DNA from: Chrysophaeum taylorii
Taxonomy: Eukaryota > Sar > Pelagophyceae > Pelagomonadales > Pelagomonadaceae
Length of the DNA stretch: 23,838 nucleotides
Assembly: GCA_029834535.1 (NCBI GenBank)
Contig: JAQMWT010000256.1
Location: 7,501-31,338 of the forward strand
Direction of reading: 5' to 3'
Position numbers and translations under genes: made by a program
Shown: positions 5,040-23,838 of the stretch, piece after piece
Layout of the letters: every line of letters starts with the position of its first letter
How positions within the stretch are numbered: position 1 is the first letter of the stretch
Notes under the pieces: model-generated
Databases searched by the model: none
The model's input: the letters and a program-made list of their open reading frames with translations, nothing else
What the model was told of the DNA's origin: nothing

Positions 5040-5298
5040 TTGATCACAGCGGGCCTTGTTTTGTCAGCGAGCCCTATCCTTGTTTTCTTCAAGCATAAGT
5101 TTAGTCAGCCAAGATACGGATTGACTGTAAAAGACCAAACATACATATGGTGGTTGGAAACTCGACTTTTCCCTAATAATAAGGGGAACTTGACTTTCCC
5201 CTTGTTATTGGGGAAAAGTCGAGTTTCCAACCACCATATGTATGTTTGGTCACCGTAAACCCCCAACAAGTTTGGTCACTTAAGTCCTAACTACTAAT
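5040..5298. repeat. Right-end cluster of AAGTTTGRTCA-type motifs
   Basis: Motif variants occur near 5038, 5096, 5243 and 5267, mostly in the same orientation as the left cluster. This is probably the other end of the MULE, upstream of its start codon, and may also hold the promoter. The foldback at 5133-5251 lies inside it. Confidence 0.55.
5133..5251. repeat. 119-bp foldback (near-perfect hairpin), MITE-like
   Basis: The left arm starts GACCAAACATACATATGGTG and the right arm ends with its reverse complement. The arms are about 55 bases with only a few mismatches (Ts and Cs in the TTTTCCC/ATAA region) around a loop of roughly 5-10 bases centred near 5192. Its outermost bases, GACCAAAC…GTTTGGTC, are the AAGTTTGGTCA motif itself. 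It could be a foldback MITE or an element end with an adjoining inverted copy. Confidence 0.85.
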
Positions 5299-5299
5299 C

Positions 5300-5382
<83 letters not shown>
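5299..5382. repeat. (CTGT)n microsatellite
   Basis: About 21 uninterrupted CTGT units, followed by CTTTAAATGTCGAC. Shorter CTGT/TTTG tracts lie at the edges of the other repeat units (about 6436-6560, 7612-7648, 8631-8690), so this tract marks a unit boundary. Confidence 0.95.
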
Positions 5383-6435
5383 TTAAATGTCGACAAGTGC
5401 AGGCCAGTAAGTTCACCTAGTCCCAATATCGAACCCCAGTAAGTTCACCTAGTCCCAATCTCTAACCCCAGCAAGTTCACCTAGTCCCAATCTCTAACCC
5501 CAGTAAGTTCACCTGGTCCCAGTAAGTTTCATATAAGTTCACCTGGTCAGTAAGTTCACCTAGCTCACACCAACTCCTTTGAGCTCGTCGCTCTCGCCTC
5601 CGCCAATCTAAACTGCTTCGATCCGCACGCGCCGCCAACCTTTGACTGAGTTTACTCTAAAAACCCTTTGCTCTAAAACCCCAGTATGTTCACCTGGTCC
5701 CAGTTTCACCTGGTCACTCAGCTCACCTAGTCCCAATCTCAAACCCCAGTAAGTTCACGTGGTCCCAGTAAGTTCACCTATAGTGCGCGTGTAGACGCCG
5801 GGAGGGGGCTTATAGGTATTGCGTAGCACGTGTGGGGTCGGGTGGAGTCGTCGACTCAGAAGAGCATATCCCCGGGGTTGCCGATCGACAGAGAGCCACG
5901 TAGAGCTGGACGTGACAGAAGACGGGCTTAGGTAAGAGGACGCCGACCTCGCGGGGCGTCTGGCCCTGGCTCTTGTTGATCGTTTGGCGTAGGCGGGCCT
6001 TAAGGGTTGCAGGTTGGAGGAGCCTCGGTGACACGACACGATCGATCATGTATCTGGTACCGTTGCAGTGGCCGTGCGACGGGTCGAGGTTGCGAAGACC
6101 TTAAGCTCGCGCTCAAAGTCAGCATGCCGTTGGTTGTCAGGGAGTCGAAAACTCGACTGTAAAGAGCGAGGCGTCGTCTTCCGACCCAACCTAGTCTGCC
6201 TAAAAGAACTCCGACGCCTCGTCTCCGGGAAAAAAAGGCCGCGGTCATGCGCGCGTTGTCAGCATCGACAACATCGTTTCGACGGGGCGTGAGAATGGCG
6301 CGCTGAAAGAGCCGCCGCGGGTCGTGGAAATAGTCTGCGAGGTCGCCGTAGACGGCTTGGAGGATCACCTGTCTGGCTCTCGCGCCTACCTGATCCTTAC
6401 TCTCGCGCCTACCTGATCCTTACCCTAAATCGAGG
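5383..6435 (-). mobile_element. Repeat unit A: Helitron/Pif1-type helicase 3' fragment plus minisatellite
   Basis: Read on the minus strand from 6435. The unit starts with TCGATTTAGGGTAAGGATCA, and the early part encodes VYGDLADYFHDPRRLFQRAI followed by Leu-Thr-Pro-Arg-Arg-Asn and Asp-Ala-Asp-Asn-Ala-Arg. This is the Helitron helicase region where RAILTPxN…V..xN is conserved. Later come TINKSQGQT (motif V) and QLYVALCR (motif VI, with Cys for Ser). The frame is broken by a T7 run and other shifts. Short stretches of other frames give LRNLDPSHGHCNGTRYM and PEDM…VDDST, also helicase. Compared with the family, segments are missing before LRNLD and between RRQ and TINKS. The rest (5400-5780) is the AGTAAGTTCACCTAGTCCC minisatellite. 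Pseudogene; no protein expected. Confidence 0.75.
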
Positions 6436-6611
6436 GACAGACAGACAGACTTTCATGCTCCCCACACACACCCCCCTCTTAGCAGTCGACATTTAAAGAC
6501 AGACAGACAGACTCTTAGCAGTCGACATTTAAAGACAGACAGGCGGACAGACAAACAAACAAACATCTGTCGATTAGTAGTTATAGGACTGCTAAGAGGG
6601 AGGTGTGTCCT
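6436..6611. repeat. Inverted junction between units A and B
   Basis: Units A and B face away from each other across this segment. It holds CAGA-type tetranucleotide tracts and two direct copies of CTCTTAGCAGTCGACATTTA (about 6477-6496 and 6513-6532). An inverted repeat pairs CCCCTCTTAGCAGTC (6474-6488) with GACTGCTAAGAGGG (6587-6600). The pattern suggests the meeting of two element ends, or a repaired palindromic duplication. Confidence 0.7.
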
Positions 6612-7646
6612 TCGATTTAGGGTAAGGATCATGTAGGCCCGCGAGCCAGGCAGGCATTGATCCTCCAAGCCGTCCACGGCGACCTCGCAGACTGTTTCCA
6701 CGACCCGCGGCGGCTCTTTCAGCGCGCCATTCTCACGCCCCGTCGAAACGATGTTGTCGATGCTGACAACGCGCGCATGACCGCGGCCTTTTTTTTCCCG
6801 GAGACGAGGCGTCGGAGTTCTTTTCGGCCGACTAGGTTGGGTCGGAAGACGACGCCTCGCTCTCAAGAGTCGAGTTTTCGACTCCCTGACAACCAACGGC
6901 ATGCTGACTTTGATCGCGAGCTTAAAGTCTTCGCAACCTCGACCCGTCGCACGGCCACTGCAACGGTACCAGATACATGATCGATCGTGTCGTTGTCACC
7001 GAGGCTCCTCCGACCTGTATCCCTTGAGGCCCGCCGACGCCAAACGATCACCAAGAGCCAGGGCCTGACGCCCCGCGAGGTCGGCGTCCTCTTGGCGAAG
7101 CCCGTCTTCTGCCACGTCCAGCTCTACGTGGCTCTCTGTCGATCGGCAACCCCGAGGATATCCTCTTCTGGGTCGACGACTCCACCCTACCCCACACGTG
7201 CTGCGCAATACCGATAAGCCCCCTCCCGGTGTCTACACGCGCACTATAGGTTAACTTACTGGGACCAGGTTAACTTACTGGAACCAGGTGAACTTACTGG
7301 GCTTAGAGATTGGGATTAGGTGAACTTAGTGACCAGGTGAACTTACTGAGACCAAGTGCAAACTTACTGAGGCTTTTAGAGTAAACTCAAAGCTTAGCGG
7401 CGTGTGCGGATCAAAGCAGCTTAGATTGGCGGGGGTGAGAGCGACGAGCTCAAAGGAGAGTGGGGTGAGTGGGTGTGGGTTTACGCCGAACTTTAGTGAT
7501 TGGGTTTACGCCGAATTTACTGGGGTTAGAGATTGGGACTAGGTGAACTTAACGGGGTGAAAACGCTGGGGTTAGAGATTGGGACTAGGTGAACTTACTG
7601 GCCTGCACTTGTGTCTGTCTGTCTGTTTGTTTGTCTGTCTGTTTGT
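6612..7646 (+). mobile_element. Repeat unit B: Helitron/Pif1-type helicase 3' fragment plus minisatellite
   Basis: Same unit as A, now on the plus strand. It encodes LFQRAILTPRRNDVVDADNA at about 6717-6776 and, in a later frame, TITKSQGLTPREVGVLLAKP and QLYVALCR. The T run after MTAAFF is eight bases here, against seven in A and C, so the reading frame differs. The shared losses before LRNLD and after RRQ are present. The last ~400 bases are minisatellite (TGAACTTACTGGGACCAGG type) interrupted by a 100-base spacer that is also seen in the other units. Pseudogene fragment. Confidence 0.75.
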
Positions 7647-8688
7647 CCCTCGATGTAGGGTAAGGATCAGGTAGGGGCGTGAGCCAGGCAGTGATCCTCC
7701 AAGCCGTCTACGGCGACCTCGCAGACTGTTTCCACGACCCGCGGCGGCTCTTTCAGCGCGCCATTCTCACGCCCCGTCGAAACGATGTTGTCGATGCTGA
7801 CAACGCGCGCATGACCGCGGCCTTTTTTTCCCGAAGACGAGGCGTCGGAGTTCTTTTCGGCCGACTAGGTTGGGTCGGAAGCCGACGCCTCGCTCTTTAC
7901 AGTCGAGTTTTGAACTCCCTGACAACCAACGGCATGCTGACTTTGATCGCGAGCTTAAAGTCTTCGCAACCTCGGCCCGTCGCACGGCCACTGCAACGGT
8001 ACCAGATACATGATCGATCGTGTCGTTGTCACCGAGGCTCCTCCAACCTATATCCCGTAAGGCCCGCCGACGCCAAACGATCACCAAGAGCTAGGGCCAG
8101 ACGCCCCGCGAGGTCGGCGTCCTCTTGGCGAAGCCCGTCTTCTGCCACGTCAAGCTCTACGTGGCTCTCTGTCGATCGGCAACCCCGAGGATATCCTCTT
8201 CTGAGTCGACGACTCCACCCTACCCCACACGTGCTGCGCAATACCGATAAGCCCCCCCCCGGCGTCTACACGCGCACGGTAGGTGAACTTACTGGGACCA
8301 GGTGAACTTACTGGGGTTTGAGATTGGGACTAGGTGAACTAAGTGACCAGGTGAACTTACTGGGACCAAGTGAACTTACAGGGGTTTTAGAGTGAACGCA
8401 AAGGCTAGCGGCGTGTACGGATAAAGCAGCTTAGATTGGCGGAGGTGAGAGCGACGAGCTCGAAGGAGAGTGGGGTGAGTGGGTGTGAGCACGAGTGGGT
8501 TTACGCCGAACTTACTGGGGTTAGAGATTGGGACTAGGTGAACTTACTGACCAGGTGAGCTTACTGGGACCAGGTGAGCTTACTGGGGTTAGAGATTGGG
8601 ACTAGGTGAACTTACTGGCCTGCACTTGTGTTTGTCTGTTTGTTTGTCTGTTTGTTTGTTTGTCTTTAAATGTCCACTGTTTGTTTGT
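7647..8688 (+). mobile_element. Repeat unit C: Helitron/Pif1-type helicase 3' fragment plus minisatellite
   Basis: Direct repeat of unit B with a period of about 1.04 kb. It has the longest single frame (about 7679-8305) through RAILTPRRNDVVDADNARMT, but this frame leaves the helicase after the T7 run. The motif V copy has a stop in place of Gln (TITKS-stop-GQT, near 8092). Minisatellite and TTTG/CTGT tracts close the unit. Confidence 0.75.
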
Positions 8689-8748
8689 CCCTCGATTTAG
8701 GGTAAGGATCAGGTAGGCGCGAGAGTAAGGATCAGGTAGGCGCGAGAC
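8689..8748 (+). mobile_element. Stub of a further repeat unit, cut by the Copia-like element
   Basis: The first ~60 bases of the unit are present, starting CCCTCGATTTAGGGTAAGG. AAGGATCAGGTAGGCGCGAGA is given twice, as in unit A but not B or C. Homology stops at about 8748, where the retroelement's reverse transcriptase begins on the other strand. Confidence 0.7.
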
Positions 8749-9430
8749 TCATTGGTAGACAAGCAATTGCTTGTATGCTGCAATAGCTAGTAGTACCCGG
8801 ATTGCGGTCATAGTGGCCACGGGGCTGAAGGTACCAAAGAAATCGGCGCCAAGAGATGCTAGGAAGCCACGTAGTACGAGGCGAGCCTTGTGCTTAACGT
8901 ATTTGCCTGCAGAGTCCTTACTACTGATCGACAGATGTTTCTGTTTTAATCTTCAGCACCATCTTGCTGTCAATAGGACGAGGGGCACCGTCGGGTAAGG
9001 AAAGTTTGAAGCAGCCAAAGCGGATAATGTCGTGGAGTTCCTTGGCGATAGCCTTGAGGTAGGCGTGCCTGTTTTCAGGCGACAGACCGTGGAGGCACTT
9101 AAGTTTATATTCGTCAATGGAAACGTCCGCTTCTTGGACCTTATATTCGTCAGGACCAACAATGGCTGGTGAATTATAGTTTAGCGACGTTGCGGTCGAG
9201 GCAGTGTGCGCAACTTCGGGATAAGCGGAAACAGCGTCAGTAGGAGTAGTAGGGGCAGATTCCAGTTGAATATGGATAGTAGGGTCGGTGCGTAAGACCT
9301 GGGTGATAAACTCTGTAGAGACCAGAAGGTATTCCTCCAAGTCAGCCAGAGATGCAGAAGTAGCGCCAAACTCGGAGGAGTTGTGATCAATAAAGCTGGT
9401 CGGCGCCAGGTACGTAAGCGCATATTGCAA
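8749..9430 (-). pseudogene. Copia-type reverse transcriptase, N-terminal part only
   Basis: The frame down to 8921 ends with AYLKAIAKELHDIIRFGCFK, then Leu-Pro-Asp-Gly and Asp-Ser-Lys-Met-Val-Leu-Lys-Ile-Lys, the conserved start of the Copia reverse transcriptase (A..KEL..L…W.LV.LP…KWVxKxK). A one-base change in an A run at about 8945 moves the frame, which then reads YVKHKARLVLRGFLASLGAD and Thr-Phe-Ser-Pro-Val-Ala…Ile-Arg-Val-Leu-Leu-Ala. It stops at 8749, at the junction with the repeat unit. This is just before the family's first catalytic Asp (DVxxAFL), so no active site is present. The upstream part of the frame (9430-9110) is linker and carries the third SLNY box. Confidence 0.9.
9177..9201 (-). 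other. SLNY box 3 (putative polyprotein processing site)
   Basis: DNA TAGTTTAGCGACGTTGCGGT (plus strand) encodes Ala-Thr-Ser-Leu-Asn-Tyr on the minus strand, between integrase and reverse transcriptase. It is close in DNA and peptide to the boxes at 11336 and 14313. Confidence 0.6.
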
Positions 9431-9516
9431 GGAAGAAGTGCCGAAGGCAGCAGCGTGTTCAGTGAACGCAGATAAAAGGGGCTGAGGAATAGGGCACGCA
9501 GGTGAACCATCCGCAG

Positions 9517-11102
9517 TTAAAAAGGTTGCATCTGGGATGCTGGATGCGCACTTGGCGTGGCGAAGTAACCATCGACGTGCGGGTAGCGGGCAAGTAAGTC
9601 AGTGCGCAACGCGAGAAGAAGACGAGCTAACAACGCATGTTCCCCCACTAAGCAGATAGCAGACCAGAGGATACCACCACGGAGATGAAGGGCGGAGAGG
9701 GCGGGAGACTTGAACGTAAGAAAGTGGCGGCGAAGATCCCAGCGGAAATCGGCGAGTTTGCCACCAGCGGCTTTGTAAGCACCAATAGTAGACGCTTGCA
9801 GCCGGGCTTGGATAGTTTTCATAGAAGTGGCCTTGCGGGTGTTGGGCTGTTTGGAACCTGGGACAGGAATGAGGTCATCTTGTGCAAAAAGGTCTTTGTA
9901 AGAAGGAAGCAAGGGCGGCGGTGACATAGAGCCAGAATCGTCGGCGAGAGTGGTAGAAGAGCGAGAAGAGGCAGGAGAAGGGGACGAAGAAGGAGCTGAA
10001 GGAGGTGGGGAGTGCCCCCTCTGAGGATGAGGAGTCCTTGTCCCCCTCTGAATGACATGGTCTTGGATAGCGGTGTGGGGTGTGAGCGAGAAAGGCGCGG
10101 GAGGAGCGTGAGGCGGAGGAGCTAGTTCAGGATCAGGAGTAGGATGCTGCAACATGTAGAGGAATTGCAGCTTGGACGAAACACGAATTTGTCCGTTTTC
10201 AGGGTTGAGGACGACGTCAGCGAGATGGTCGACGCGTGGGGAGACGAGCGGGTTTTGCGCGTTGGCGCAACAGAGATATAGATATTTGCGGCGGCACGGT
10301 TCCCAATTGTGGTGTTCATAGGGCTCCAATAGGAGGTAACATTCAGCGCCAAAAATCTTGAGCATATCATGTTGGGGAGTGTTGAGTTGGTTGTAGAGTA
10401 GCTGTTGCGGACTCAGGATAGCATGATGAATGCGCTCGAGCGTGGCGTTCGGGAGAAGGTTGTAGCTTTGAACGGTGTGTATCACCGCCCATGGGAACAT
10501 GATAGCTGGTTCCACGATCTTGGCGCCACGATAGTGAGCATTAAGGAGAGAACGAAGGCGAGTTGAGGAGGCGGAGGCGATGAAACCGATGGCAGACTCA
10601 ACCTCAAAGTTAACGTGGTGCATGTACGGCGGGGAGGCAATGAGTTGAATGCCCTTATCGACGCGGTACAGGGAGGTAATGTGCTGGCTAAAGTAAGGCT
10701 TGAATGCATCGGAGTAGAGGGTGCGCATGTGCACATTGAGTTGTGTACGACAGAAGTCATACACAAAATCCAGAGCTTGAGTGAACTCCGTGGCGTTGGT
10801 GGTGCGTGTAAAGTACACCAAGATTTCGAAATGAGTCCCTTGAGGACGATGATATGTGTGAAGCCTCCCCAATCGGATGGGATGGTTACATAGCCGCCGT
10901 CGCACGCCCAAACTTCACCGGCTTTGTGGGTTTGCTCAAAAGAAGGCTTGGTCGCATTGAAATGCTTGTGCGGGTGGCGCTTGTTGTGTGCGATGCAGTC
11001 GGTGCATAAGTCGCGATATGGTATGTCAGAAGCAGAGAATCCAGGGCGAGCAAGTACGTTGGGGGCCTTGGCAGCGACGTTGTCGGGGCAGTGATGCACC
11101 GG
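9517..11102 (-). pseudogene. Copia-type HHCC zinc finger and integrase
   Basis: The HHCC (gag pre-integrase) domain begins near 11100: His-His-Cys-Pro-Asp-Asn, then DLCTDCIAHNKRHP with the two Cys. The catalytic core follows: Asp in ACDGGYV (10901-10899), Asp in YSDAFKPYF (10710-10708) and Glu in FEVESAIGF (10599-10597), with 36 residues between the last two, normal for this family. The C-terminal region contains FGAECYLLLEPYEHHNWEP, matching the conserved Phe-Gly-x-x-x-Tyr segment. A Pro/Ser-rich linker follows (about 10120-9900). A frameshift near 10840 separates the first Asp from the rest. Role: insertion of the cDNA into host chromatin. Confidence 0.9.
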
Positions 11103-11335
11103 TGAAAGCGATTAGCACGTTCTTTGGCATTGGGATATTCGGTGGATCCGTGTGCGAGGACTTACGAGGAATTGGATGAGCGGGAATGTGCCGTTTGCGC
11201 CGAACATCGAACTTGAGTTCGGTGTCTAAGGCAGAGGAAGGCGGTGCGTCGTCATCCTGGTGCACAGCAGGGTCACTTGGAGGTGCATCCTCATTATCAC
11301 GAGTAGCGAGAGTATCTTCGTAGGACGACGATATA

Positions 11336-11357
11336 TAGTTTAACGACATTTCGGTCA
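11336..11357 (-). other. SLNY box 2 (putative polyprotein processing site)
   Basis: DNA TAGTTTAACGACATTTCGGT (plus strand) encodes Thr-Glu-Met-Ser-Leu-Asn-Tyr on the minus strand. It lies between the unassigned segment and the integrase, followed by an acidic linker. Confidence 0.6.
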
Positions 11358-11378
11358 AGCAGTTGCTGGAAATATACA

Positions 11379-12264
11379 TCATAAAAGATTGTGCCAAAGA
11401 CAAGGTATCTGTGCTGCACGTGGTGGAGGCTTGGTCAACGGTAATGAAATTGGATACATAGGATTATTCGTCACGGCAGCAGTATGTTGGAAGGTAGGGT
11501 CCAACATAAGGGATTTAATATCGGCGACGATGAGCGAAAGGTGCTTGTACAGAGTGCTGTACGTACCGGCAGGCAGAGCATTGCTGAGCATGTCACAGCA
11601 AAGGTCATGGCGTAGAGACAAGAGGAAAGATTCCTGTTGTTTGGTGTGGTTGTTAGCACGAATCAACTCCGGTCGAGTGGGGTAGCGTAATTTCCCGTTG
11701 CGAGGATCGAGTAGAATAATATTGGCATACCCTCGGACGGTTGGCAATGGAGCAAGCATTGAGTGGACTTTAGAGCCGAGTTTGCGGTCACTTCCACGAA
11801 GATACCCTATATAGCGATTACGAGATAGGTGATGATCTTCCAGAGCAAAAAGAGAGTCCTTGTAATCGAAAGAGTTGTGGGTGGCCTTGTAGGTAAGGCA
11901 GCCAGGCATCACAAGAGAGCATCTGGACAAGAGTTTTTGTATGGCGGTGCCATAGGTGGCAGCGGAGCCAACTTGGGGAAGGGCTTGGACTATCCACAAG
12001 TAACCCACAAACGGCTCCAAATATATGGACCTGTCCCGGTCGCGGGGGATGTCGGAAGCAGTGAACGTATACGTGCCTCCAAAGGCGTTGATGGAAGTTT
12101 GATATTTGGTGGTGGCGTTCTCTATGGTGAGGTTGCCGTCGGAATGGTGGCCACCAGTTAAGAAGTAGGAGTTGTGTGATGTTGATGAGGTTGTAAGTAA
12201 TAACCTGTGTGACGGTTGGTTAGTTTCGAAAACGGTTATGTAATAGGACACAGGAGTGGGTGAG
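11379..12264 (-). pseudogene. Unassigned polyprotein segment after the methyltransferase
   Basis: About 300 residues read without a stop. PFVGYLWIVQALP, then ATYGTAIQKLL (about 12020-11935), could be worn forms of methyltransferase motifs IX and X, in the right place at the C-terminal end of that domain. The rest, including RYIGYLRGSDRKLGSKV and NIILLDPRNGKLRYPTRPEL, I do not recognise. It looks like folded protein (mixed hydrophobic and charged) rather than linker. It ends at the second SLNY box, so it belongs to the same polyprotein. Confidence 0.55.
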
Positions 12265-13351
12265 TTAGTGTAAGCTGGCAAACAAGTTATAGAGGACTGT
12301 AAAAACCTTGACGTGTATAGGATGCGTTGCATTGGGTAGTGGCTCCATAGAGGAGCGTTTAAAGCACAACTGATGATAAGTACACTCGGATTGAACAGAG
12401 TGAGTACGTTGTTCGTGAGCCTGTTGTGAGTGAAGGCGAAGCAGTAACATATTGAGGGATTCAAGGTCAGCCATAGTAAGCTGAGCAGAACCTGTGCGAG
12501 AGTAAGGTGCAAACGTTTTAGGAACGGGGATATATGGAGGATCGGGGAACACCCGGATCCAGTCTTTGGATACGTGTTTAGGTAGCCAAATGCGCTTGGG
12601 AATAGCGTGTAGATCATCCACTATCGTTAGGAAGGGGCGTGGATGGAGGATGGGCCACGACAATTGTTTAATTGGTCCAGTATAATATCTGCGTGCGATG
12701 CATATCCATCTTTCTCTAGATTGGTAGTCGCCACAGAGGTAGGTCGGGAACCTATCAACAACATCGACACAGTAATCAAGTGTAGTATGGATAAGGTTGG
12801 CCACTGTGATGTGGTCTTGATGACAGTACTTATGCGGAGGCGTCATCTCAGCCAGTAGTACCAAGGGCTGGAGTAGCTTGATGACAGACAACATGCTGTC
12901 GAAAAGAGAGTCGTCCAGCAGGCTGTGTAAGTCTTCTGTCTTATGCTGTTTTAGTAAATTCCTGTTTGTGCAGGGAGGAGTGATCTCAATTATATCACAA
13001 TAGAATGTGCGCCTTTCCTCTGGTGAGATTAGGTGAAGGTGGTTAATAAAGGCGGGGAGAGAGAGATTCAAATAATAATACAGTAGGAAAACAGTGGCGT
13101 AACATACAAACAAGCGTATCATCAGACTCAACAACAACTTTTACATTGATATTTAAGCCTAAGTCATTAGTGGCTTGAGACAGGAACGCCGGAGTTGACA
13201 AACCAGAACAAAGTAACATGACAGAGGGTTTGCGGAGATTGGACTCTTGTGAGAGAAACACTGGCGTGAAAGTAGTCAAGTTAATGGCTGCGTATTTTGC
13301 TGAACAAATTTGTTCTGTTTCCGAAGATTGAGAACCAAAGGGCGAATCCAC
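12265..13351 (-). pseudogene. Cytosine-C5 DNA methyltransferase domain inside the retrotransposon
   Basis: C5 methyltransferases flip a cytosine out of DNA and methylate it from S-adenosylmethionine. Visible motifs in order: motif I SVMLLCSGLSTPAF (13225-13184), the SAM-binding loop; then VVVESDD, the acidic end of the next strand. Motif IV is DIIEITPPCTNRN with the catalytic Cys codon at 12972-12970. Motif VI-like VLLAEMTPP has Glu at 12849-12847. Motif VIII is GDYQSRERWICIARR (about 12729-12685). Spacing I-IV of about 80, IV-VI about 40 and VI-VIII about 42 residues is normal. A target-recognition-like stretch follows to about 12400. Motif I and motif IV are in different frames, so this copy is broken, with a shift near 13100. 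Motif VI reads Glu-Met where Glu-Asn-Val is usual. Such domains are known in retrotransposons of dinoflagellates and charophytes. Confidence 0.8.
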
Positions 13352-14012
13352 GGGCGATCTGGTAAAACTCGTTGGAGTAGGTAGTTGTAGTATGCCAGTA
13401 GATCCCTGTTTTCATGGTATCGCTTGAGGGGAAATGCGAGAGAACGAAGTTCGAGTTGCTTGTCGCGCGCGATGTTGTAAGTGAGACAAGGGAGAGCAGG
13501 TAAATTAGCTGCTACATAGTGTATGGGTATACGTACATCTTTGTCTATGCGGCTCGTGACAGCGCTGAGCTTTGGCTCAGCTCGATCATTGAACACAGTG
13601 GCCATGTTCGTCTGGTTCCACTCGAGCATGCTCAGGATAGCGAGATGTCGGTCATGCACTGGCTGAAGACATAAAGCGAAGTCGATCTTAACATAGCCAA
13701 CTTGTGGATGATCTGGTAGGCGAACAACAATGTTACGTGTTAACATCATGCGTGATGCCCGTTGTTGTCCTGTAGCCGTCTGAATAACAATCGGCGCGTG
13801 TTTGGAATCCAAAGGAATTATATGATTGGGTATTGCAAAATCGTAAGTGGACATCAATGAGATGGTAGCACAAGAGTCAAAATATAGAAAAGAGCAATGT
13901 GGAGGGACACTGTTTACCTTCATGTAGTTGGTGAGGAAGGCGCTTCCGAATGTGGGCAAGTAGTGGAGAGGCTGGCTGTGAAGAAGTTCTTCAGCAATAA
14001 CAGATTGGAATA
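13276..14012 (-). pseudogene. Retropepsin-like aspartic protease
   Basis: The segment CSFLYFDSCATISLMSTYDF (about 13895-13838) matches the Asp-Ser/Thr-Gly-Ala active-site loop of retroviral-type proteases, with Cys in place of Gly. About 90 residues on, HDRHLAILSMLEWNQ fits the second conserved strand (Ile-Leu-Gly-Met-Asp-x-Leu) with Ser for Gly. The protease would mature the polyprotein. Its frame is +1 relative to gag, which it overlaps by about 300 bases. Confidence 0.7.
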
Positions 14013-16043
14013 ATAATCGGTTGAACAGGTGGTGATGGTTCGTCAGCCTCATCAGCCATGCCGTGCTTTTCATCAAATGACGATAGCGAAGTATGATCGG
14101 CATCCCTTTTGGTTTCGGCTTGTGATGGTGTGTTGAGGGCAGATTGGACCTGTGAAGATAACGAGGACAATAATGCTGGTGGTAAAGCCGAGATGGCGGA
14201 AGCGGTAAAGAGGTTAGGCACAGTATTGGAAGGATTACCCTGTGTGTTTGTAGTAGGAGGAGTTGCCTTTGGGGTGGGAGCAGTAACAACAGTATGGTGT
14301 TGTGGCTCCACGTAGTTTAACGACTTTTCGGTCGAGGATAGATGAACGTCTACATCATAAATGATGTCTTCTGCAAACATGAGCTGTTCGTTTAGACGAA
14401 GTAAACTACGGTTGTCCTCAGTAGATGTCGTTGACAGAATGTCAGCTGATTGTAATAGAGTCTCAAATAACTTGTTGATATTCGGTTGTAGCTGAGCCGT
14501 GGTATCATTATCTGTCACATGCTTCGTAAGTTCACTACACTGTTCTCGCAGGGTGTTAAAGGTGTGGTTTGTTCGATCTAATAATTTCATGTTAGACCGA
14601 GAGGACCTGTCAAAAGTGCGGGGGTAAATTGGACGGTCATGGGACTGTCCGGCAGTTTTCTTGGTGACGTAAGAATCACCAGGACGATAATACGATAAAT
14701 CGCTGCGAGAGAAAGGCTGGCGAGCATCATTAGAGTTACGCAAGCGTCTAGCATTGAACGTGGAAGATGTACCAGGTTGGGACGAAGTGATGAAGGCGAG
14801 TGTGTTAGCAGTTTGAGTCAGACTTTTGTCTGATGAATCCAACGTGTTTGTAAGTAGTAACTTTGGCTTTGGTTGAGATGATAAACCTTCGACATAGGGT
14901 TGCCAAGAAACAGGGCGTTCTAAGCGTCTTTTGTTCGACCCATGTGATACTACATTGTAAAGGTCTAATGCGTATTCTAAAATGTACCTAGGGTTGGTAG
15001 GGTGACACAATCGTTCAGCTTCTGGCACAGGCCGAGATGAAGATCGGGTTTCGTACATATAACACCAATCTACCCAACCACGATCGTAACGGTTGTTGCT
15101 GGTATTATCGGCATAATGCCGATGTATCTCTTCATAGACTTTTCTATAAAGAGTGCCAAAGTCGAATTGAAGGTCAGTCTCTTCCTGGTTAAGTTGGTAA
15201 GAGATTTGCCTAAATGCTAGGACAGCTTCGATAAATATATGGACATACCAGTTAGGATTATAAACAACAGAGTTAAATTGCTGTTTCAAATAGGACAATC
15301 GGTAGTCGTAACAGACTCGTAGTAACTAAAGGCGATGAGCATAATAGCTCGAGCCTTGTTGGGTAAATAACTTTTGTTGTATACCTCATTGATGGCGGGC
15401 CAGGCTGCAAGTGCTGGTTTTCCAACACTTTCAAGATTGAAGTAAGTATGCAAGAATGTAGCATACGTGTTCTGATAAGTGTGCCAGTCAGCAGCAGTTA
15501 ACGAAACATGGTAACAGGGGCACGAACACGGGTGTCGAATGCTAGTGCCTTCGGGTGCGCGCGATTTAAGATTCGTACCTCTTCTAAGAAACGGGCATTG
15601 ATTTCAGGACGTAATGCCTTGACTTCATAGTCGTAACAGACAGTAGCTAGCTGAGCTACTTCTGCATCAGGCAAGTGGGGGAAAACTTCGTTGGTGAAAT
15701 GCCATTCCTGATACTCAGGGGGCAATTCATCAACAGCTAAACGTAGATCAGCAGCCCTATCGGTCTTCCATTCCAGGAAAATGCGATCGAGAATTTGATT
15801 CCGGAGGATCTCGTAGTCCTCGCATGACCGAGTATATGCTTCGTACGAGTCGTACTCGAGGAAAGCATCGGCATGACTGGACCGTAACAATTGCTTAATG
15901 TGCTTGATTTGCAAGGATACCTTGCGAGTCTGAAGCTGAAATCGATTTCCATCGTCAAGAAACTCAACTACAGGAGCTTCGACCTTCTATACATCCGCAC
16001 CTGTGATCGCCTTGGGTGCGGCTCGTGCTGCGTGTTCTGCCAT
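13991..16043 (-). pseudogene. Gag-like protein of the Copia-order element
   Basis: The first in-frame ATG is at 16043, followed after 18 codons by a TAG (about 15987) and then an open frame to 15498. After a frame change it runs on to about 15300 and after another to 13991. About 680 residues in all: helical N-terminal half (Tyr/Trp-rich, e.g. YNPNWYVHIFIEAVLAFRQI), then a Ser/Thr/Arg-rich stretch, then a helical segment with Leu-Arg-Glu-Gln-Cys. I see no CCHC zinc knuckle. It is placed as gag by position before the protease and by composition; there is no family motif. The C-terminal region contains the first SLNY box. Confidence 0.6.
14313..14337 (-). other. SLNY box 1 (putative polyprotein processing site)
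   Basis: DNA TAGTTTAACGACTTTTCGGT (plus strand) encodes Ser-Thr-Glu-Lys-Ser-Leu-Asn-Tyr-Val on the minus strand, near the end of gag and upstream of the protease. Confidence 0.6.
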
Positions 16044-16049
16044 AGCAGT

Positions 16050-17086
16050 TGACGGGGAACCTGTGGGTTCAGTCACGCAGTTGACACTGTCTAGACATTC
16101 TAAGGGGGTCTGTCTATCGGTGTCTATGTACACTCATCGTTTTCGATGGAAATATGTCTATTTGACGACTGTGCAAGCTGTGAGTCCAGAGTAGTGTCGC
16201 TAAGCGTAGTCACTCAGGCAGCTGGTTAGTTTTGGTGCTCTCAAGGAGCTTGTTAAGTGCATCACCATGGAATGTACGAGTGGACGTACCCAAAATATTC
16301 CATAACATGTGTGCAAGAGTACAGGTTAGCCAACTACACACACATCAACATTGACATGGCAATACGACACTATGAACAGGTGCACACAAGGCTACACGAT
16401 CACGTGTGCAAAAAATATGCTATATACAGCCCAATGGTAATGGCGATATATTGACAAGCGTGTCACATGTCGAGGCTGGACCGGCGCGGTAACAGTCCAA
16501 TACCCACAGGCTAAGTGCATGTTGACACATGGCTTATCAGGGACCCGCCTGGGCCCATAACCTGCAGAGCATTAGCAAGCAGTGGTAAGTCACCTGGGAA
16601 ACCATCCCGTCTCATCATGAACGTCTGGAAGTATTTAATTCGGGGTTGAAAAGGTATGTTCCCTATATCCTCAGAACACGACAGGCGGCATCTAGAACTA
16701 CACGAGAAAGGTAAAGTGTATAGTGCTACATACCTCGGGACGCGCTAGACCATGATGATGAGCGTAAGCACAAATCAGAGGACTATTTGATTGTGTATAA
16801 AGGAAGAAGAAGGGGTAAGGAAGAGATCACGTTCTCGACGGACGGATAAGGGTAAGAGGCAGCAGATTTCTCTGCAGCAACTAGCCAGCCTTAAGTTGGG
16901 AGGTTTGGTGAGCGTGAACACGTATTGTGGCGACGCGTAGCCGACCCCAAGTCCGTATTGACCTCGAGTGTAGAGGTCTCCGGCGTGTTGGTGAGTACCC
17001 CCGGCGTCCACGGGTCGGGAACGTTTTAATGCCGCCACACAAACTTTCCGATCAAACTTGACCGACCCCTATTTTATATCTATACT
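16050..17086. other. No convincing gene; possible 5' LTR and flank of the Copia-order element
   Basis: This lies directly upstream (minus sense) of gag, where a 5' LTR would be expected. The minus strand has a TGGACTCACAG stretch at about 16182-16172, which could be a primer-binding site since it starts with TGG. About 6 bases further out is a CA that could end an LTR. With no second LTR to compare, borders cannot be set. Short open frames here show no motifs. Confidence 0.3.
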
Positions 17087-18515: not shown

Positions 18516-18624
18516 TTCACCATTACCACCATCCCTTTTACATCTGGCGCACTAGAAATGGTAGGTTTATTGAGCCTTACCCTCAAACGTGACACGTCAC
18601 AATATGTCTTAGATACATACAAGC
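18516..18624 (-). promoter_or_regulatory. Short upstream region of the sulfotransferase gene
   Basis: Only about 109 bases separate the start codon from the repeat unit D minisatellite. The stretch contains GTGACACGTCAC (18589-18600), two GTGAC/GTCAC arms two bases apart around an ACGT core, a layout seen in bZIP-type sites. There is no clear TATA box. The promoter role is inferred from position only. Confidence 0.35.
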
Positions 18625-19235
18625 GCAGGCCAGTAAGTTCACCTAGTCCCAATCTCTAACCCCAGTAAGTTCACCTGTTCCCGTTAAGTTCACCTAGTCC
18701 CAATCTCTAACCTCCGTAAATTCGGCGTAAACCCACTCGTGCTCACATCCACTCACCCCACTCTCATTTTAACTCGTCGCTCTCACCCCCGCCAATCTAA
18801 GCTGCTTTGATCCGCACACGCCGCTAACCTTTGAGTTTACTCTAAAAACCCCAGTAAGTTCACTTGGTCTCCGTAAGTTCGCCTGGTCACTAAAGTTCAC
18901 CTAGTCACAATCTCTAACCTCCGTAAGTTCACCTGGTTCCAGTAAGTTCACCTGGCCCCAGTAAGTTCACCTACAGTGCGCGTGTAGACGCAGGGAGGGG
19001 GCTTATCGGTATTGGGCAGCACGTGTGGGGTAGGGTGGAGTCGTCGACTCAGAAGAGCATATCCTCGGGGTTGCCGATCGACAGAGAGCCACGTAGAGCT
19101 GGACGTGACAGAAGACGGGCTTGGGCAAGAGGACGCCGACCTCGCGGGGCGTCTGGCCCTGGCTCTTGGTGATCGTTTGGCGTCGGCGGGCCTTAAGGGG
19201 TACAGGTTGGAGGAGCCTCGGTGACACGACACGAT
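18625..19235 (-). mobile_element. Repeat unit D: truncated helicase-derived unit plus minisatellite
   Basis: Same family as units A-C, minus sense. Minisatellite at about 18632-18975 is followed by the helicase end with RRRQTITKSQGQTPREVGVL and QLYVALCR (about 19200-19080). It lacks the terminal GTCGACATTTAAAG on one side. On the other it stops at about 19235, in the middle of the unit (after CACGAT), so the RAILTP part is missing. The minisatellite end points at the sulfotransferase start. Confidence 0.75.
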
Positions 19236-19440
19236 GTGGCGGTAATAACCATCCCCCCCCCCACACTTATGTGCCTGTTACCTGCCTGTTACCTTGAATT
19301 TGGCGGTGTCATGCTTGACACCCACACCTGCTTCTCCAAGGATACTCCTGTACCGAGAACCTGTGTTGCTCTTGCCGATCTAGCATATCTTGCTGGATCA
19401 CCCATTGGAATCTATCGATTCTTGTTGTTTCCTTGAAATT
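19236..19440. other. Gap with no gene; one perfect hairpin
   Basis: Nothing coding is recognised. GGTGTCATGCTTGACACC at 19305-19322 is a perfect 7-base-arm hairpin. A C run lies at about 19250-19262. Confidence 0.4.
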
Positions 19441-21919: not shown

Positions 21920-23838
21920 GTCTGGAAATTTGATCGGAGCCGCGCTGCCCGAACGTTGAAGGCTGCAGGCTTCCCACCGACGGCAGAAGGACAGGCCCAA
22001 TGTCGACAAACGGTCACGGCTAATCAAGCTGCCGTGACGCGGCGCGTTCAAGCACCATTTACGCCACCCCCACGTCGTCTACTACTGCTGCGCAGGGCTG
22101 TTGCAGGTCCCCAACGTAATCGCCGCTCCGCAGCAGATGGTTCAGCAACCGTGCAGCAGCAGAGTGCATCGCGCACGCTGAGATCGGCGACGTTGCGCAG
22201 GCACTAAACACCCTGTCGTTGCTACTAAGTCACCCAGTCGACACAGCAGCAGGCCAACCCCAGCCAGTGCAGTGCCGGCGCCGCCTCCCTCGCGGCTCGA
22301 TGTGCTTGATGAAGATCAGGGCGGCTCTAGGCGATTCAATGGATGCACGGTGCAGAATGCGGCGCTGATGGACGGCGTGATCAGCGGAGACGACGAGGAT
22401 GAGAGCCGTGGTGATGTAACACCAGAGCATCTTTTTGTGATGAACCCATGGAACCGCCCTCCTTTTTGGTGATCACCGAGGACGCATGGACGGCAGAAGA
22501 GAGTCGGCGTTGAGGTGCGCAAAGTCGCGTCCATCCTCTCCAGTCAAGACGGAGGGAGATGTCGAAAGACGAGGACCCAAGCTGGTTTACTGGTCGAGAC
22601 CCACCGATGGCCATCGCGCCAGACGTCATCGACGATCTTGCCACTGGCTCCGCTGCATGCCCGAGCTATTAGCTCTGATTTCGATGAGTTCTGCCCGCAG
22701 ACAGCGATGAATACAGCTAGTCATCCTGATCATCGTGAGAACAAAGCAGTGACATACGACGGGACGAAGTTGACGCGTTTTTGACGTATATCCCTGTCGC
22801 CGTTGTGTCTCAGGATGGTGCATCTTATCCGGTCCTTGCAGCTGGGCTGGATGGTATGGCTGACTCGCCATACATCGATCCGCTTTACGCAGCTCAGACG
22901 TGAAAATAAGATCATTTATCGCCAGGCGCTGCCCTCTACTCGCACTCTTAGCGGATCAGGTGGTTCGGAGCGGCTATTCGCGAAATTGATTATCTTGCGC
23001 GTTTCTATGACGCCTGAACTTCCACTCTGGATGTTTTTCGTGGGCACGAATGGGCAGCTACTACTAGGAGCGCGAGAATTACGACTTTGGGTTCTATCAT
23101 GGATCGCGCCCGAGTTGGCCATTTTCCGTCGCTCTGAAGTGCCATTGGAGTTCTGAAAAGTAGAGATCCCGATGCGCTTCAGGACCACCAGGGCGTTGTC
23201 CTCTTCAACGAAGCGTTCGATGCGACTCAACGGTTCCTATGTTCCCGACGGCGAAGCTCGCCATACACGACGGGAACCAGCAGTGGCGTCACTGCTACCC
23301 TGGCGGTATGAAGCTTGCTTCGGTCCATCCAGGCTAGAGCCGAGCACCATCGCACTGACCCAGAGCATCCTCCGCTAGACGCGCATGGTTGGATACTTCT
23401 GCGGGTACGGCGGACAAAGTCAGGTTTCGTGAGGATCCCACCGTCGTCCTCACTTCGCGTTTGTGACTAAGACCACTATCTCGCACCCGGCCATCCGCGT
23501 GCTGAGCTTGTCTGTGACGCGCCACTGATGAGAGGTCAGGCCTACCGCCCTTATCGCTCGCTCTACCTGATTTGCGTGTGATACCAAACTCTTTGTCGTC
23601 ATTGCTTCCACGAGCCGAACGAAGTTTACGTGGCTGTGGAGCATGTTGGCACACATCTATTGGACTCGACCTGAGGTACCCATGATCGAGGGAAGATCAT
23701 ACCACATGAAGGTTGCGTCAAAGCGCCGCCAAGCCGCTAAACAGGATAAAAAGAGTCTGTTTTGCTACTGTTCAGCTGACGAAGATGAGACGGAAGTCGG
23801 GGGAGGTTAGCATGGCTACTGAATGTAAACTGAACGAA
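21920..23838 (+). other. Unrecognised, frame-broken remainder of the retroelement
   Basis: Coding-like pieces occur in changing frames: an acidic stretch at about 22290-22470 (LDVLDEDQGGSRRFNGCTVQ), VSQDGASYPVLAAGLDGMAD at about 22800-22865, and LGSIMDRARVGHFPSL at about 23090-23140. The second could be a very worn retropepsin, but no Asp-Thr-Gly triad is visible. No reverse transcriptase or integrase motif was found before the window ends. Confidence 0.35.

Follow-up and report, generated by a model that had tools for sequence, protein, structure and literature searches.

A very likely, highly diverged C5 cytosine methyltransferase in the Pol polyprotein of a Copia retrotransposon family of Chrysophaeum taylorii

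A Copia element and its methyltransferase region

The stretch of DNA that we analysed (the window; 23,838 nucleotides of contig C256 of the 70.8 Mb, 697-contig assembly of Chrysophaeum taylorii) holds a broken copy of a Copia retrotransposon of a family that we term A, in which a region that very likely encodes a C5 cytosine methyltransferase (MTase) lies between protease and integrase. The features are as follows.

8753..16876, minus strand: Copia element of family A, broken copy (alignment to the relatives L009 and L016)
16560..16876, minus strand: 5' LTR, about 316 bp (alignment with the copy on contig C42, whose sense position 791 corresponds to window 16876)
14006..15941, minus strand: gag region, in more than one frame (tblastn with the L014 gag-protease frame)
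13279..13956, minus strand: protease region, assigned by eye, with YFDSCAT at 13864-13884
13276..13278, minus strand: in-frame TGA 3' of the protease, with CTA as the next codon (pattern for the protease end)
11463..13264, minus strand: putative C5 cytosine MTase region of about 600 aa, here spread over three frames (tblastn; hhalign against canonical C5 MTases)
13184..13216, minus strand: motif I, LLCSGLSTPAF (profile alignment, tblastn)
12958..12984, minus strand: motif IV, ITPPCTNRN, with the catalytic-type Cys (profile alignment, tblastn, locus pattern scan)
12832..12858, minus strand: motif VI, LLAEMTPPH, Glu kept and Asn-Val replaced (profile alignment, tblastn, locus pattern scan)
12706..12732, minus strand: motif VIII, GDYQSRERW (profile alignment, tblastn, locus pattern scan)
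11649..11693, minus strand: motif IX, KLRYPTRPELIRANN (C-terminal profile match to canonical MTases)
11565..11594, minus strand: motif X, DMLSNALPAG (C-terminal profile match, locus pattern scan)
11329..11355, minus strand: TEMSLNYIS, between MTase and integrase, a candidate protease cleavage site
10250..11096, minus strand: integrase, frame broken in this copy, lower limit approximate (SH3_retrovirus, E 0.002, and comparison with the L009 frame)
11079-11096, 10995-11006 and 10890-10910, minus strand: integrase motifs HHCPDN, CTDC and WACDGGY
8752..8998, minus strand: Copia-type reverse transcriptase, 5' part, truncated, upper limit approximate (RVT_2, E 7.7e-42, in the corresponding L009 frame)
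22665..23722, plus strand: fragment of a Gypsy element of family E close to the end of the contig, from the protease side and interrupted by stops (tblastn of L044, E 1.2e-33 and 2.0e-32)

The window copy is 96.3% identical over 8156 bp to L009, the copy on contig C42, and 91.1% identical over 8177 bp to L016, with the same window limits in both alignments; the 3' part of a family A copy, namely the rest of the reverse transcriptase and the 3' LTR, is missing from the window. In L009 one natural frame, 1691 aa long, extends from the MTase through the integrase to the reverse transcriptase, and Pfam recognises in it RVT_2 (E 7.7e-42), with rve (0.0076) and SH3 (0.00056) in the right order and both below their cut-offs. 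The integrase thus lies 5' of an RVT_2 reverse transcriptase, as in Ty1/Copia elements, and the rank is that of a Copia superfamily, where the sequence-only reading from which we started had spoken of a Copia order. Paired LTRs are present in the C42 copy as a direct terminal repeat (791-1106 and 12331-12643, 92.7% over 317 columns), which gives the element a length of about 11.9 kb from end to end. A long repeat in L010 was rejected as an LTR pair because it extends into gag, and the LTRs were therefore taken from the C42 copy. No Pfam protease match was obtained for the window frames or for the long family A frame. The peptide SLNY occurs three times in the polyprotein on the minus strand, in gag (14306-14332), before the integrase (11329-11355) and before the reverse transcriptase (9170-9196), and possibly represents a protease cleavage signal. 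Repeats in clusters, with AGTAAGTTCACCTAGTCCCAATCTCTAACCCC as their unit, and tracts of (TGTC)n occur in both orientations at window 5300-8750 and 18610-19240 and so flank the Copia copy on both sides, and similar clusters adjoin the L016 copy; an inverted repeat with 56-nt arms, 96% complementary and 7 nt apart, lies at 5133-5251.

The sequence-only reading had quoted peptides for motifs I, IV, VI and VIII, and all of these are present on the minus strand, in order and at the places given, although they are split over two frames because the window copy is frameshifted (the three MTase frames are 13264-13061, 13056-12271 and 12269-11463). Its placement of the domain between the protease and integrase of a Copia pol polyprotein is likewise borne out by the L009 frame, the family copies and the profile alignment. 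The range that it had assigned, 12265..13351, proved too short, with motifs IX and X following further on, to about 11.5 kb. We had also considered the stretch between motif VIII and the integrase as a mere spacer, an idea that was rejected since the stretch holds these two motifs; motifs VIII and IX are about 335 aa apart in window coordinates versus about 140 columns in the canonical profile.

Identity and conservation of the domain

Is the region a C5 MTase at all? The sequence-only reading had proposed a Pfam search and had named the absence of a DNA_methylase match as evidence against its claim, and that, taken literally, is what was found: there was no such match in any of the ten window frames scanned, or in the long family A frame of L009. 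Eight members in all of families A and B, the MTase domain of B being about 50% identical to that of A, were scanned singly against Pfam, and the best of them reached an E of 0.27, short of the gathering score; searches of both families against PDB chains, with single sequences and with profiles, returned nothing relevant. Prediction of the structure of window frame 12265-13137 alone gave a mean pLDDT of 37.5.

Because single-sequence searches are blind to A and B, we compared a profile of natural copies with a profile. The A/B profile comprised 28 natural stop-free sequences (18 A and 10 B, with two copies entered twice, as window/L001 and as L018/L033), and the canonical profile comprised 12 C5 MTases, ten from named plasmids and phages (L053-L062) and the host-type genes L021 and L022 from the genome that contains the window. 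The hhalign comparison of the two gave Prob 86.3, P 4.8e-6 and a score of 48.4 over 183 columns, with motifs I, IV, VI and VIII of A/B in register with their canonical counterparts; the reversed controls gave P 0.16 and 0.15, and 60 column shuffles gave a mean score of 14.5 and a maximum of 20.7. Family A alone matched with P 4.9e-6 (reversed 0.1 and 0.09) and family B alone, by a smaller margin, with P 3.8e-5 (reversed 0.016 and 0.013). The C-terminal part of A/B, with motifs IX and X, matched the same part of the canonical profile with P 4.5e-5, and none of 100 shuffles did as well. An extended A/B profile scored slightly lower (Prob 78.6), with the alignment in one piece for the first half only. 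The description of the domain as highly diverged is upheld by this profile match in the face of Pfam's failure to recognise it. On these comparisons, the A/B domain is very likely a real, conserved C5 MTase by descent.

The motifs are retained in copies elsewhere in the genome, one of which (L009) has the open 1691-aa frame. Our scan covered 23 A loci and nine B loci, which were mostly best matches rather than a random sample; L018 contributed one A and one B copy, and L001 and L033 were left out as duplicates. The motif I pattern was found in 20 of the 23 A loci (not counting a 21st hit that falls in the B copy of L018) and in all nine B loci, PCTNRN of motif IV in 22 A loci and all nine B loci, and motif X in 22 A and eight B loci. 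The QxRxR of motif VIII, in family A by a loose pattern, and the Glu of motif VI were present throughout (23/23 and 9/9). The sequence-only reading had noted Glu-Met in place of Glu-Asn-Val in motif VI, and this holds in every locus scanned, Asn-Val being replaced by Met-Thr in both families.

The MTase is also under purifying selection. The median dN/dS of the core from motif I to motif VIII was 0.086 (15 copies with open frames), the lowest of the segments tested, versus 0.148 for the N-terminal part (13 copies), 0.227 for residues 197-345 (18), 0.204 for the stretch 345-640 (12) and 0.165 for the integrase (11); these medians are of pairs with dS above 0.03, come from different sets of copies for each segment, and are biased towards low values because the copies were picked for open frames.

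Has the MTase been lost from part of the family? A listed MTase match lies upstream of 69 of 136 integrase matches, at a median distance of 1974 bp, in a pairing that took in 136 of 139 integrase and 135 of 137 MTase matches (the five omitted are small second fragments), with the integrase matches coming from about 136 scored among 1308 candidates. Loss of the MTase in half of the integrase matches was rejected, because the three that we read among the remaining 67, picked for their long open frames, all carry an MTase, and because only about 136 of the 1308 candidates had been scored. The sequence-only reading had held that intact relatives lacking the segment would reveal an unrelated insertion; none appeared among those three of the 67.

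Related families and the route of expression

Five families of MTase-bearing LTR elements are present in the 70.8 Mb. With fragments included, the listed MTase matches number at least 137 for A (the window copy among them), at least 150 for B, at least 55 for C, at least 138 for D and at least 146 for E, or at least 626 in all. Family C is a Copia family whose reverse transcriptase and integrase are 36% and 26% identical to those of A; its count is that of 55 matches with its extent, of which 11 were read and all 11 were C. Its motifs include FTLPCQHLS and mostly VENVP, with Glu-Asn in 11 of 11 loci. Families D and E, 42% identical to each other, belong to Gypsy, and their MTase is preceded by a protease-like stretch and followed by the reverse transcriptase. 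Pfam recognises DNA_methylase in the one representative of each that was searched (C 32.1, D 22.6 and E 35.3 bits, with a cut-off of 22), and in all three representatives the MTase follows the protease-like stretch, the protease being assigned by eye. In L044, another copy of the family E whose fragment lies in the window, the DNMT likewise follows the protease.

How are these domains related? A/B and C are collinear from motif I to motif X. Their profiles did not match significantly in short form (P 0.055, reversed 0.03) and matched weakly in long form (P 0.013, reversed 0.06), and the C-terminal parts matched with P 0.00018, none of 100 shuffles being as good; the motif IX/X part of C alone matched the canonical profile weakly (P 0.0057, one of 100 shuffles as good). 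These results would fit one old capture in this Copia lineage. No link was detectable by hhalign between D/E and either A/B (P 0.21) or C (P 0.55), so that a minimum of two captures is probable, both into the position that follows the protease, and the suggestion of the sequence-only reading that the domain is a separate capture stands relative to the Gypsy families of this genome.

Other searches returned little. Among C, D, E and L022, NCBIfam gave dcm below the cut-off for D (0.0057) and E (0.0018) and nothing relevant for C; no C5 MTase reached significance in PDB searches with C and with D/E (best E 0.086 and 0.092). The window frame was without a match in phage records, scans with two short peptide patterns per group yielded no relative of A/B, C or D/E in public viral contigs, and the D/E patterns found none in prokaryote genomes. 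Of the two host-type C5 MTases, L021 (C634) matches the solved DNMT2 1g55 (3.9e-39), and L022 (C621), which we take to be DNMT5-like, has a GTSC motif and a weak RING match. A chlorophyll-binding protein match adjoins the DNMT2-like host gene, which points to a host capable of photosynthesis.

In families A and B a TGA stands in frame after the protease in 30 of the 31 sequences found by the protease-end pattern, the sole exception being L011, with AAC TAA. The next codon in family A is CTA in 14 of 20 sequences (CTG in two, ATG in two, CCA and ATA in one each) and in family B it is CGC in all ten, of which L018 and L033 are the same copy. UGA CUA is a leaky stop context. No RNA fold beyond that of shuffles was found 3' of the TGA in six sequences (z from -0.50 to 0.42). 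From the conserved in-frame TGA we infer that production of the MTase, and with it of the integrase and reverse transcriptase, probably depends on readthrough of this stop codon. In the family C copy L041 (C96), gag and pol overlap in different frames, and the Pol of that family may therefore come from frameshifting rather than from the TGA of A/B.

Possible roles and comparison with known systems

A major question arising from these observations is what an LTR element would do with a cytosine methyltransferase. The usual view is that retroelements are victims of DNA methylation. The likeliest role in our view, judging from motifs, selection and position, is catalytic, with the enzyme marking the DNA of the element that encodes it. 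A Copia LTR lineage would have captured a C5 DNA MTase, which became the first product of Pol. Ribosomes would mostly halt at the TGA and yield Gag-protease, and occasional readthrough would yield Gag-protease-MTase-integrase-reverse transcriptase; the protease would cut this polyprotein, and the MTase would be packaged with the reverse transcriptase into the particle, where it would methylate cytosines in newly made element DNA, either ahead of integration or as it takes place, so that each copy arrives already marked. The likely gain would be that a host defence is avoided or that the host is harmed less. This scheme as a whole, in which the captured enzyme is kept as a packaged, readthrough-made product that premarks new element DNA, we regard as reasonably probable.

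Whether such marking has left a footprint is a separate matter, for which the signal is weak and uneven, and pair counts are not independent. For CpG, observed/expected ratios of 0.88-1.18 were obtained for nine element stretches, of 1.09 for the remainder of the window, and of 1.26 and 1.46 for two host gene loci. Among ten A copies, the transition rates are 0.140 for CpG, 0.125 for GpC, 0.131 for CC and 0.078 for GG. At 4-fold sites, family A has no excess of C/T differences before G (0.069 versus 0.057-0.068), and its A/G differences are more frequent when C precedes (0.069) than when T (0.039) or G (0.058) does. Family B has the C/T excess before G (0.160 versus 0.063-0.094), and its A/G differences are no more frequent when C precedes (0.055) than when T does (0.057). 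On the sense strand, C/T differences at these sites exceed A/G differences in both families (A, 0.067 versus 0.053; B, 0.100 versus 0.044), a strand asymmetry.

Could the domain instead retain the fold of a C5 MTase with lost or changed catalysis, kept for binding DNA or RNA or for the assembly of Pol? The Glu-Met found for Glu-Asn-Val in all 23 A and nine B loci and the strong divergence from Pfam are what one would expect, but the motif IV Cys is kept in 22 of 23 A and all nine B loci and the motif VI Glu and motif VIII in all of both, no other segment tested has a dN/dS as low as that of the MTase core, and family C has Glu-Asn at the same place in 11 of 11 loci, and we consider this reading unlikely. 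We are similarly doubtful of a bolder version of our own proposal, in which two LTR superfamilies would each have taken up a C5 MTase after the protease, made in A/B by readthrough only, the particle would premethylate the cDNA, and the several hundred gene copies may supply much of the methylation of the host. That host DNA is the target, with hundreds of element MTases setting part of the host methylome or countering silencing, would accord with the numbers of matches listed in the 70.8 Mb for families A to E (137, 150, 55, 138 and 146, counting fragments), but many of these are fragments or contain stops, which leaves this alternative rather improbable. DNMT2-class C5 MTases have an RNA substrate, namely tRNA, and the MTase of family A travels with a reverse transcriptase, which copies an RNA template and is probably primed by a tRNA; an RNA m5C methyltransferase acting on the genomic RNA or on the tRNA primer is nonetheless a poor candidate, since the TPPCTNRN of family A is unlike the SPPCQPHTR of the DNMT2-like host gene. 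Chance resemblance, with the segment being no MTase, would agree with the lack of a relevant Pfam or PDB match for A and B but is highly improbable, because the profile match beats shuffled and reversed controls, the motifs are in order, and A/B are collinear with the Pfam-recognised C (the A/B-C match being significant in the C-terminal part only).

The uptake and upkeep of MTases in several LTR lineages of one small genome open the proposal that elements methylate themselves to direct test. Such enzymes can escape standard domain searches, and retroelement MTases may therefore be commoner than thought.

How does family A compare with what has been described? According to the pertinent passages of de Mendoza 2018 (PMC5890265), DNMTs occur in LINE and DIRS elements of Symbiodinium and in a Gypsy element of Klebsormidium, two DIRS enzymes from dinoflagellates carry out de novo CG methylation in yeast, no activity was seen there for the LINE and Gypsy enzymes, a result termed inconclusive by the authors, and the Copia elements of Symbiodinium are given without a DNMT. 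KnitGypsy-Dnmt3 of Klebsormidium nitens resembles family A as a multicopy LTR element whose Pol frame includes a cytosine DNMT under purifying selection; as there described, it is a Gypsy element of DNMT3 class by the authors' tree, whereas family A is Copia, invisible to Pfam, and has the long motif VIII-IX stretch and a TGA before the MTase (PMC5890265). SymbioDIRS-Dnmt3 and SymbioLINE-Dnmt likewise amount to hundreds of retroelement DNMT copies in one alga and differ, in the same account, as DIRS and LINE elements with other domain orders (PMC5890265). A single sentence of a 2025 paper names DNMT3 in LTR Copia and DIRS elements of streptophytes and dinoflagellates (PMC12344493); by that one-sentence description, it shares Copia and a DNMT with family A and differs in being of DNMT3 class. 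DAM- and DCM-encoding Gypsy and DIRS elements of stramenopiles and others are mentioned in a 2019 opinion article (PMC6338049), and an Ectocarpus DNA transposon with a ParB and DNA methyltransferase protein, as outlined in 2025 (PMC12477816), is of another kind. In the non-subscription literature searched, we recognised no description of a Copia DNMT between protease and integrase.

With canonical C5 MTases (PF00145; e.g. L053-L062), family A has in common motifs I, IV, VI (Glu), VIII, IX and X in order, and it differs in TPPCTNRN, in EMT for ENV and in the longer VIII-IX stretch. In Tca2 of Candida albicans, by the part of its description used here, a UGA must be bypassed for Pol, as probably in A/B, and the junction alone gave no directed readthrough in baker's yeast; the Tca2 UGA follows gag, whereas that of A/B follows the protease, with the MTase next (PMC2194720). 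Retrotransposon DNMTs are thus already known from LINE, DIRS and Gypsy elements, with Copia named in one paper, and the arrangement in family A is a variant of these.
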